From contig NZ_CP045488.1 of the NCBI RefSeq assembly GCF_009392895.1, positions 2,790,001-2,854,000 of the forward strand: a stretch of 64,000 nucleotides of DNA, given 5' to 3'. The notes under the pieces are model-generated. The model saw only the letters and a program-made list of their open reading frames with translations, had not been told where the DNA came from and ran no database searches. This document shows, one piece after another, positions 10,745 through 14,906 of the stretch; positions within the stretch are counted from its first letter, which is position 1; every line of letters begins with the position of its first letter. A program made the position numbers and the translations under genes. The DNA is from Natronorubrum aibiense. GTDB taxonomy: Archaea > Halobacteriota > Halobacteria > Halobacteriales > Natrialbaceae.

Positions 10745-10950
10745 CGTATTCTACTAGTACACGCGCATTCCACTTAAATGCCCCCCATGACAGAACATTT
10801 TTTCTGCTTGCGCAAAATTTTGTTTATAGTATCTGATTTCAAACCCCCTAAAAAGGAGAAAATCGGGGTTCCGAGATGCTACCACTCAGCATGCTGGTAT
10901 TTTTTCAAGTATGAGTAAACATTTTCAGTGTGGGGGTTCAAAGAGTGCAT
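10745..10950. promoter_or_regulatory. Divergent promoter region of dpsA and the aldehyde dehydrogenase
   Basis: This 206-base stretch is far richer in A/T than the rest of the window, with TTTTTTCTG, AAAATTTTG, CTAAAAAGG and TATTTTTTCAAG. CATTTAAG on the minus strand (10773-10780) fits the dpsA TATA box. For the rightward gene no single TATA stands out; AGTAAACATTTTC near 10914 lies about 30 bases before its ATG. No DtxR-like TTAGG palindrome is visible here. Confidence 0.5.
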
Positions 10951-12420
10951 ATGGCAACGAGAGTCGCACAGCGGAGAGAGCGGATCTACGTCGACGGGGA
11001 ATGGCTCGAGACCGAGAACGTGATTTCGGTATCGGATCTCGCCGACGGCGGGACCTTCGCACAGGTCGCCGCGGCGGATCCGGCTACGGCACACGCCGCC
11101 CTCGAAGCGGCCCACGAGATCAAACCGGAACTGCGCGAGACGACGGTTGTCGAGCGTGCGCAGTGGTGTGAGACGATCGCAGAGGGACTTCGCGAGCGGG
11201 AAGAAGAACTCGCGGAGGTCATCGTGCGCGAGGCTGGCAAGCCCATCTCGTCGGCCCGCGGCGAGGTCGAACAGGCCGCGACGCGGTTCGACCGCGCGGC
11301 CGAAGAGGCCCGCACCATCGTCAGCAAAGGCGAGTACCGCGAGGGCTCGACCGAGGGCCACGAGGGCTGGCAAGCGATCGTCAAACACGAGCCGATCGGT
11401 GCTGTGCTCTGCATCACGCCGTATAACTATCCGCTGGCAACGACGGCATTACAAGTTGCCCCTGCACTCGCAGCGGGCAACAGCGTCCTGCTCAAGCCCG
11501 CGAGCAAGACGCCGATCTCGGCGGCGATTCTCGCGGACGTCATCGCCGACGTCGACGGAATTCCGGACGGCGCGTTCAACTTCGTCCCCGGCGAAGCGAG
11601 CGAGATCGGGGACCTCCTCTCGGGCGACGATCGCATCAACGCGATCGCCATGACCGGTTCCTCGGGGGCCGGGAAACACGTCGCTCGCGAGAGCGGCATG
11701 GTCAACCTCCATATGGAACTCGGTGGCAACGCACCGGCAGTCGTCTTCGACGACGCTGACCTCACCGACGTCGCGGGCAACTGCGCGAAGGGGTCGTTCA
11801 AGTACGCCGGCCAGCGCTGCTCGGCCATCTCGCGCGTGCTCGCCCACGAGGACGTCCACGACGACCTCGTCGATCTGATCGACGAGCAGATGGACGCTTG
11901 GCAAGCCGGCGACCTCTTCGACGAGGACACCGCGCTCGGCCCACTCATCTCCGAAGCGCAGGCCGATTGGGTCGAAGAACTCGTCGAGGACGCCGTCGAG
12001 AAAGGGGCCGAAATCGTCCGCGGCGGCGAACGCCGCGCCCCCAAGGGCGTCCCGGACGAACTCGGTAGCCAGTTCTTCGAGCCGACGCTGCTCGCGAACG
12101 TCCCTCACGACGCCCGCATCGTCGACGAAGAGCAGTTCGGCCCTATCGCCGTTATCACCACCTTCGAAGACGAGGACGAAGCCCTCGAGATCGCCAACGG
12201 CTCGGATCTCGCACTCGACGCGGCGGTCTTCACTAGCGACTACAAGCGCGCGATGCGGATGGCCGAGCGCATCGACGCCGGTGCGGTCCGGATCAACGGT
12301 GCACCAAGCCACGGGCTCGGCGACGTTCCATTCGGCGGCAACAAAGACTCCGGTATCGGCCGCGAGGGACTCGACGCCTCGATCCACGAGATGATGCGCA
12401 AGAAGAGCATCGTCCTGTAG
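10951..12420 (+). CDS. GapN-like NAD(P)-dependent aldehyde dehydrogenase
   Basis: A 489-residue aldehyde dehydrogenase. The NAD(P)-binding fold contains GNSVLLKPASKTP and MTGSSGAGKHVA; the general-base Glu is in MELGGNAPAVVF and the catalytic Cys in YAGQRCSAISRVL. The C-terminus (FGGNKDSGIGREGLDASIHEMMRKKS) resembles non-phosphorylating glyceraldehyde-3-phosphate dehydrogenase and the archaeal lactaldehyde dehydrogenase group. It probably oxidises a small phosphorylated or hydroxy aldehyde; the exact substrate is uncertain. The ATG at 10951 fits the usual N-terminus; an in-frame GTG seven codons earlier is less likely. Confidence 0.88.
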   Translation: MATRVAQRRERIYVDGEWLETENVISVSDLADGGTFAQVAAADPATAHAALEAAHEIKPELRETTVVERAQWCETIAEGLREREEELAEVIVREAGKPISSARGEVEQAATRFDRAAEEARTIVSKGEYREGSTEGHEGWQAIVKHEPIGAVLCITPYNYPLATTALQVAPALAAGNSVLLKPASKTPISAAILADVIADVDGIPDGAFNFVPGEASEIGDLLSGDDRINAIAMTGSSGAGKHVARESGMVNLHMELGGNAPAVVFDDADLTDVAGNCAKGSFKYAGQRCSAISRVLAHEDVHDDLVDLIDEQMDAWQAGDLFDEDTALGPLISEAQADWVEELVEDAVEKGAEIVRGGERRAPKGVPDELGSQFFEPTLLANVPHDARIVDEEQFGPIAVITTFEDEDEALEIANGSDLALDAAVFTSDYKRAMRMAERIDAGAVRINGAPSHGLGDVPFGGNKDSGIGREGLDASIHEMMRKKSIVL

Positions 12421-12488
12421 GCCGGCCGCTCGCTTTGCCCTCCGCTGTCGCCCACCTGCATTGCCATCGCTTGCGATACCGATCGCGC

Positions 12489-13628
12489 TCAAAACGCGTA
12501 CGATTTGATCGCGATGACGGCTGCCTCCGTGCCAGAAATGGCGACGACGGTGATCGTTCCCAATGCGCCCGCATCGTACTCGAGCGTCGCCGTTTGGCCG
12601 ACCTCGATCAACTCGCCGCGCACTTCGCCGTCTTCGCGAATCTCGACTCGGTCGGCGGTATCGCTCGAGATGAGCGTCACGGAGACGGTGTGTGACGCCG
12701 AATGGACATCGATACCGACGCCCGCTCGCGGCTGGGATGGCTCGCTCCCGCGTTCGGCAAAGAGATCTCGGTATTCGTACTCCGCAGTCGGCATCGTTCT
12801 CGTTGCCTCTCCGACGATGCCGTCGACCGTCACGTCGTCGAACTGCGCGTTCGTCCGCTGCTCGAACGACTCCATCCGATCGGAATCAGCAGCGACGGTG
12901 ATCATCGAGTGCGTCGTCGTTTCGGACCCGAGTGACCACGAGAACGCAGCCCCGTTTGCCTCGGCTCTCCCGTCGTACTCGCCTCAGAAGATTGTCCGGT
13001 CGCCGACACGATCGGCCAACCGTGCGAAACCATCACTTGCATTGATGCGCCGATCGGTCCCCTCGACGCCCGCCTCGAGAATCGTCTCGAGGGCCGCACC
13101 GTCGGCAGGACTCACGACGACCATCTCTGTGGAGACGGCGACCGACCCAGCGTCGTGTTCGAAGAGCTCGAACGCGCCGATCGCCGACTCGAGTTCGGCA
13201 TCGACCGCGCCGGGATCGAACGATCCGGAGACGACGACGTTCCCGACGACCCCCTCGGAACCGAACCTGCAGACGGCGTCCACGGCTGGCTCACCGCCGG
13301 CAACGTCCTCGATCACGTCGCTGGACGGTCCGGCCGGCATCGTCGGCACTGACGCGACGACGTCGGCTTGCAGCGCATCCTCGTACTGTCGGAACGCGGA
13401 GCGATCCCGGTAGTGAAACAGGAGTTTCGAACTCGACGATGCAGGAACCCAGCGCTCGAGGAGCGTACGCTCGCATTCACCCTCGGTGTCTGGATCGCCA
13501 GTTTCGTCGGTTTCGTCGTCGGGACGATTCGTTCCAGCCCCCTGATCGAGACAGCCCGCACCGACGGTCGTGAGAGCCGTTCCGATGCCCGCTGTCACGA
13601 GTAGTTCGCGTCTCTGAATGTTTTTCAT
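12489..13628 (-). pseudogene. Secreted lipoprotein gene interrupted by one in-frame TGA
   Basis: The N-terminal part (13628-12987) starts MKNIQRRELLVTAGIGTALT with a Tat-like RR and a lipobox GAGC, then an acidic linker and a folded domain ending VGDRTIF. A TGA at 12984-12986 follows. The same frame then continues without another stop to TGA at 12489, reading GEYDGRAEANGAAFSWSL and a further 140 residues, all with normal haloarchaeal codon use. Together they would make a lipoprotein of about 379 residues. I do not recognise the family. Either this is a recent nonsense mutation, a sequencing error, or readthrough; haloarchaea are not known to use selenocysteine. Confidence 0.75.
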
Positions 13629-13751
13629 ACGAATAGTATCTAATTGGAATTGATTGATTATATAACTGCGGTCTATCACTTAGCCGGATAGCGACGCAAA
13701 CGATGTGGTTGCAAGCCGGAGCCCTATCCGAGTTGTGGGAGACAGAATGGT

Positions 13752-14906
13752 ATGGCTAGCAGCGTCCGCGGCATGCTTTCGTTCGGCCGATCAATCGTCG
13801 ACGGAGTTCAAGAAAAGAACGTGCCGTTTATGGCCGCAAGCATCGCGTATCAGGCGTTCATTTCGTTACTGCCGTTGCTCGTCCTGGTGTTCTTTCTCGT
13901 CACGATCGTCGGCGACGAGACGTTCGCGGCCGAAGTCACTGCCACAACCGAGGGCTTTCTTCCCGACAGTGGTCAGCTCCTGATCGAAGACGCACTCGAG
14001 GACTCGCCCGCGACGGCGGGGTCGTCGATCATCGGGGTCGTCGTGCTCCTGTGGGGATCGCTGAAGATCTTCCGCGGACTGGATACGGCCTTTTCGGAGA
14101 TCTACGGCACCACGAACGAGAGTTCGTTCGTCGACCAACTCCGTGACGCCCTGCTCGTCTTCGGCGCGATCGGTGGCGCACTGTTCGTGGCGGCCGCAAC
14201 GGGCATCCTGTTCGCGTTTCTCCCCTCGATTCCGGGGCTGGGTGTGATCCAATCGCTCCTGCTCGTCGCCGTCCTCTCAGTCGCGTTCTACCCGATGTAC
14301 TACTACTTTCCCGATGTCAGTACCTCCCGGCGGGAGGTCATCCCCGGCGTCGTGCTCGCAGCCGTCGGCTGGATGGCACTCCAGTCGCTGTTCCGCGTGT
14401 ACGTTTCGTTCGCCGCTGATTCGGAGGGCGCAGGGCCAGTCGGAGCCATCCTCCTCTTACTGACGTGGCTGTACTTCGGCGGGCTCATCTTGCTTTCCGG
14501 CGCCGTCGTCAACGCGATCGGGACCGGGTACCTCGAGCCCGGAACCGATGACGACTCGGCTGCGCTTACTGACGACTCGATCGCCGAAACCGACCGTGAC
14601 CCGTTCATCGACGACCGTCAACGAGAACGCACGCGTCTCACCGACCGAGCCGACGCCCTCGAGCGCGAACGGGATAAGCTCCGACTCGACCTGCGCGCCC
14701 AGCGCGAGCGTCGAACCCAACTCGAGGACCGAGCGACGACCCTCGAGGAAACCGTCAGCACGCTCGAGGAAGAAAACGATCGCCTGCGACGCGAACTCGA
14801 GGCCCAGTCTCAATCGGAGCGCCAGCCAGCCTGGCGACGATACGCCGACGCAGTGCTCGGCCACGTTCGGACGGTCAAAGTCGGCGTTCTCGAGCGAACG
14901 CGGTAG
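13752..14906 (+). CDS. YihY/BrkB-family inner-membrane protein with C-terminal coiled coil
   Basis: A 384-residue protein. Residues about 15-260 contain six hydrophobic helices with the family signatures VPFMAASIAYQAFISLLPLL and the GSLKIFRGLDTAFSEIYG region, plus LLTWLYFGGLILLSGAVVNA. From about 285 to 355 there is a long charged heptad-like coiled coil (RADALERERDKLRLDLRAQRE and following), an extension common in haloarchaeal members. The YihY family, once called ribonuclease BN by mistake, is an integral membrane family of unsettled function. It is preceded by 123 bases with a probable own promoter. Confidence 0.88.
   Translation: MASSVRGMLSFGRSIVDGVQEKNVPFMAASIAYQAFISLLPLLVLVFFLVTIVGDETFAAEVTATTEGFLPDSGQLLIEDALEDSPATAGSSIIGVVVLLWGSLKIFRGLDTAFSEIYGTTNESSFVDQLRDALLVFGAIGGALFVAAATGILFAFLPSIPGLGVIQSLLLVAVLSVAFYPMYYYFPDVSTSRREVIPGVVLAAVGWMALQSLFRVYVSFAADSEGAGPVGAILLLLTWLYFGGLILLSGAVVNAIGTGYLEPGTDDDSAALTDDSIAETDRDPFIDDRQRERTRLTDRADALERERDKLRLDLRAQRERRTQLEDRATTLEETVSTLEEENDRLRRELEAQSQSERQPAWRRYADAVLGHVRTVKVGVLERTR

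Follow-up and report, generated by a model that had tools for sequence, protein, structure and literature searches.

A single in-frame TGA in a Tat-lipoprotein gene of Natronorubrum aibiense: probable signature of a young nonsense-mutation pseudogene

In-frame stop codons in prokaryotes and the locus in N. aibiense

The closest described counterparts of the gene studied here are the single-nonsense (unitary) pseudogenes of prokaryotes, in which one in-frame stop lies between intact flanks and which have syntenic intact orthologues elsewhere while being dispensable in close relatives. An in-frame UGA followed by conserved downstream sequence is also a feature of archaeal selenoprotein genes, described in Methanococcales, Methanopyrus and Asgard archaea. 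Outside the Asgard group, the only known archaeal users of selenocysteine (Sec) are Methanococcales and Methanopyrus (PMC11227280), and a review of archaeal recoding names stop-codon redefinition as the way in which Sec and pyrrolysine are incorporated there (PMC8211752). A further point of comparison is the reassignment of UGA to Trp in NCBI genetic code 4.

Here, we followed up a split gene in a 64,000-nucleotide stretch of the N. aibiense genome (NZ_CP045488.1, positions 2,790,001 to 2,854,000; hereafter the window). The gene shares with unitary pseudogenes the single in-frame stop with intact flanks, the syntenic intact orthologues and the dispensability in close relatives, and no tested feature sets it apart from them; its youth keeps a sequencing error as an alternative. 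With archaeal selenoprotein genes it has the in-frame UGA and the conserved downstream sequence in common, but its orthologues carry Trp rather than Cys at this codon, and searches of its genome gave no tRNA-Sec or SelB match over cut-off and no SECIS-like Rfam match around the site. As in genetic code 4, its UGA stands where relatives have Trp; in contrast to that code, more genes of this genome end in UGA than in any other stop codon, and no tRNA with a UCA anticodon was found. The features of the locus are collected in Table 1.

Table 1. Features of the split lipoprotein gene and its surroundings (positions are those of the window)
Feature	Position	Strand	Remarks
Aldehyde-dehydrogenase-like (ALDH-like) flanking gene	10930..12420	+	Synteny; 81-96% identity in compared loci
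Former Tat-lipoprotein family gene, whole	12489..13628	-	379 codons with codon 215 read through; translation, end-to-end homology, conserved neighbours
Natural terminator TGA	12489..12491	-	At, or at most 1 residue from, orthologue ends
Downstream fragment	12492..12983	-	164 codons; remaining alpha/beta region and C-terminal beta-sandwich; homology continuous with upstream part
In-frame TGA, codon 215	12984..12986	-	Codon-resolved alignment; predicted strand E213-219
Upstream fragment	12987..13628	-	214 codons; twin-arginine signal and lipobox (RRELL...GAGC), then about two-thirds of alpha/beta region
TATA-box-like element TTATATAAT	13657..13667	-	About 30 bases before ATG
YihY-like membrane protein flanking gene	13752..14906	+	Synteny

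Frame, homology and predicted fold of the split gene

An earlier note, made from the letters of this DNA, had described a single TGA splitting an otherwise intact lipoprotein gene, about 165 codons beyond it without another stop, and haloarchaeal codon use right up to the stop on both sides. The downstream frame is indeed open, its exact length being 164 codons, and no second stop occurs across them. Since the DNA is GC-rich and the antisense frame at the locus is open too (302 codons), a long open frame is weak evidence by itself, and we dropped its length as a point of significance. The statement on codon use went too far: the mean log-odds per codon are 0.13 before the TGA and 0.23 after it, compared to a median of 0.35 and a 5th percentile of 0.19 for the genes of the genome. 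Because the open frame says little and codon use is weak on both sides, homology is the real test of a split gene, and it confirmed the original description: in each of 34 other genomes, the two halves align with a single protein that is free of internal stops.

The upstream fragment reads MKNIQRRELLVTAGIGTALTTVGAGCLDQ...DRTIF (214 codons from ATG), with an N terminus, MKNIQRRELLVTAGIGTALTTVGAGC, that contains the twin-arginine motif and lipobox, while the downstream fragment reads GEYDGRAEANGAAFSWSLGSETTTHSM...IKSYAF (164 sense codons) and includes the stretch AFSWSLGSETTTHSM. There is one copy of the gene in the 4.35-Mb genome. Using the protein with the TGA read as Trp as query, we found the 34 full-length homologues among 124 other genomes of the family. 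The 19 closest (51 to 62% identity) all belong to one other genus, g16, and many of them are named Natrinema in public records, and an alignment-based scan of named genomes gave matches in ten Natrinema relatives and in Haloterrigena sp. H1.

Codon-resolved alignment revealed Trp, always encoded by TGG, at the site of the TGA in 17 of the 19 closest homologues, with CAA (Q) and CGG (R) in the other two; in distant homologues the residue is S, Y, F, V or I and, in one case, W. Neither Cys nor Sec was seen at this position in the orthologues, which run straight through it, and none of them has TGA at codon 215. Because 17 of the 19 closest sequences have TGG, parsimony favors a single transition, TGG to TGA, as the origin of the stop at codon 215.

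We also looked for orthologues that end at the same point and are followed by a separate downstream gene, the arrangement that the earlier note had named as speaking against its description. None was found, and the downstream part is a separate gene in none of the homologue loci examined. It is scarcely credible that the locus now holds two functional genes, the second of which is translated from an internal ATG (12905) or by way of re-initiation. In favor of this, an in-frame ATG lies 26 codons past the TGA, and termination-reinitiation in archaea is described at overlapping stop-start pairs (PMC6728339). However, the orthologues are single genes, stop and start do not overlap at the locus, and the internal ATG is not preceded by an AT-rich promoter-like box. 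The downstream part, moreover, would lack a signal peptide and lipobox and would begin inside the alpha/beta region.

Searches of Pfam and NCBIfam revealed no convincing family for the lipoprotein. In an AlphaFold2 model based on the alignment (mean pLDDT of 78), the upstream fragment comprises the elements E68-75 to H199-208, and the strand that contains codon 215 is followed by further alpha/beta elements and the C-terminal beta-sandwich. A fold search returned the Treponema lipoprotein TP0453 as a weak match (TM of 0.26 to 0.29) and, for the C-terminal part, weak similarity to FN3 and type IV pilin domains. Since the fold matches are only weak, no function was assigned to the protein other than that of a lipid-anchored surface protein.

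Decoding of UGA in the genome

Fifty tRNA genes were found, 49 by the Rfam model and an intron-containing tRNA-Trp by pattern search. None of the 50 has a UCA anticodon as assigned by ARAGORN, in a search that a tRNA with an unusual intron may have escaped. The tRNA-Trp has the normal CCA anticodon and a 101-base intron, and the tRNA at first missed by ARAGORN is a tRNA-Gln. A genome search for tRNA-Sec (RF01852) and SelB (TIGR00475) gave no match over the curated cut-offs; the tRNA-Sec matches below the cut-off coincide with ordinary tRNAs, and those of SelB are presumably other translational GTPases. Between positions 12300 and 13800 of the window, no Rfam family was matched.

Stop codon usage was sampled from 444 kb of the genome, where TGA ends 138 of 255 predicted genes (about half) and is the commonest terminator. 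None of these 138 genes is followed by strongly coding-like in-frame sequence, in a screen that did not pick up the window gene, owing to its low codon score, and that would miss other weakly biased split genes as well. The gene's natural terminator is also TGA, as in most of the 12 orthologues whose ends were displayed, and stands in a context similar to that of the internal TGA. One orthologue (L014) terminates with TTC TGA GG, which is the local context of the internal TGA.

A weaker TGA-joined candidate pair (L141:14425-15843) consists of two same-frame genes with one TGA between them, in the window's genome and in the congener G008, and could pass for a split gene. It was rejected as a split gene and taken as an ordinary in-frame gene pair, its parts being separate genes with variable spacing in most congeners.

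These results bear on a possible read-through, in which the UGA would be decoded as Trp by near-cognate tRNA-Trp or recoded to another residue, so that some full-length lipoprotein is made. The intact and conserved downstream frame speaks for it, and TGG to TGA is the change that near-cognate decoding by tRNA-Trp would tolerate best. Nevertheless, we regard read-through as very improbable. The TGA is common to no orthologue, which argues against conserved recoding, and the results on tRNA-Sec, SelB, UCA anticodons and Rfam families around the site all point away from it, as do the natural terminator and the end of L014 with their matching contexts. For Sec in particular, the known archaeal distribution outside Asgard archaea adds to this (PMC11227280). 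Partial decoding of the UGA as Trp by near-cognate tRNA-Trp, with both truncated and full-length lipoprotein being made, would be extremely improbable.

Age of the lesion and fate of the gene in the genus

In the 12 orthologues displayed, AT-rich boxes similar to the TATA-box-like element stand about equally far from the ATG and would represent leaderless promoters. The start codon and lipobox are intact in the split gene. Branch lengths of the window sequence, estimated with IQ-TREE on a fixed topology, were 0.302 upstream and 0.408 downstream of the stop, a ratio of 1.35 compared to 0.32 to 2.53 in other sequences. Conserved positions are kept at 50 of 55 sites upstream and 30 of 36 downstream, the downstream fraction being the lowest of the close set, only slightly so. 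Judged from these comparisons, any relaxation of constraint downstream of the stop would be small. Since a random substitution in the downstream part has a chance of about 3% of creating another stop, one lesion dates the event only loosely; a recent change is indicated because the promoter, start codon, lipobox and most conserved downstream residues are intact. The earlier note had considered very recent decay, read-through and a sequencing error, and had not expected Sec. Recent decay agrees with TGG in most orthologues, the gene's absence from most congeners and a little-decayed downstream half; the doubt about Sec is borne out by the lack of tRNA-Sec and SelB matches over cut-off and of a UCA tRNA among those found, together with normal TGA use.

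The 30 of 36 conserved downstream positions retained and the lack of a second lesion also count against a pseudogene, as a downstream half so well kept would equally be seen if the gene were intact and the TGA a sequencing error. Such an error, in base calling or assembly, is the main rival explanation, and an unlikely one. The single lesion, the lack of clear relaxation in the downstream half and the intact promoter, start codon and lipobox all fit it, whereas the assembly is good (4 contigs, 99.98% complete). On prior odds, moreover, a substitution creating an in-frame stop would be a rare type of error, while absence of the gene is common in the genus.

The flanking genes, whose names we take from reading their sequences, allowed comparison of the locus across genomes. 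The gene order ALDH-lipoprotein-YihY is kept in the homologue loci checked, with only L024 lacking ALDH, so that the homologues are orthologues by position. In the genus itself, 8 of 9 congeneric genomes have no match to the lipoprotein, and only G004 has one, which is distant (32%), while the ALDH and YihY genes are present in all nine. The two genes directly adjoin in G002, G005 and G008, with gaps of about 70 to 115 bases. Between them, G001 and G006 hold a frame of 567 codons that we take to be membrane-permease-like, and G003, G007 and G009 a frame for what is presumably a PfkB-like kinase; G004 has the kinase frame plus the lipoprotein. The slot (12421-13751 in the window; loci L118-L126) is variable in content across the genus. 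The gene occupies this slot in several genera, which makes repeated loss the simplest explanation; judged from this distribution, the gene is dispensable and appears to be in the process of being lost from the genus.

Two diverged lipoprotein types, about 32% identical, occur at the same locus (window; L004, L025, L026, L027 and L028). The window copy groups with g16 (Natrinema) sequences and that of the congener G004 with the other type, which some g16 genomes carry too; such a grouping points to an exchange of alleles or to differential loss. Sequence change is much faster in the lipoprotein than in the gene next to it, with 30 to 62% identity compared to roughly 81 to 96% for the ALDH-like gene. 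In the congener G003, a YihY paralogue (G003:C16:11771-12814) is likewise reported with a single in-frame TGA and is possibly another young pseudogene.

Taken together, the locus is by far best explained as a young nonsense-mutation pseudogene, which is highly probable. On this view a gene was inactivated recently and in an ordinary way, and the genetic code is not read unusually. One transition at codon 215, in the simplest case from TGG to TGA, would recently have broken a dispensable, fast-evolving lipoprotein gene. The intact promoter probably still drives transcription of the gene, and translation should stop at the internal TGA as at other TGAs in the genome, judging by its decoding machinery and its use of stop codons. 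The resulting fragment of 214 residues would be missing the final third of the alpha/beta region together with the entire C-terminal beta-sandwich; it is probably non-functional and probably unable to fold properly. Because the same gene is absent from 8 of 9 congeneric genomes, the split gene may represent an early step of a loss already completed elsewhere in the genus.

If read-through were true, the locus would be a case of natural stop-codon suppression in haloarchaea, of which the genome shows no sign. As a young pseudogene, the locus is of small significance beyond annotation, as the recent inactivation of a gene missing from most congeners. For annotation, the two halves are best recorded as one pseudogene rather than as a 214-residue lipoprotein and a separate protein of unknown function.
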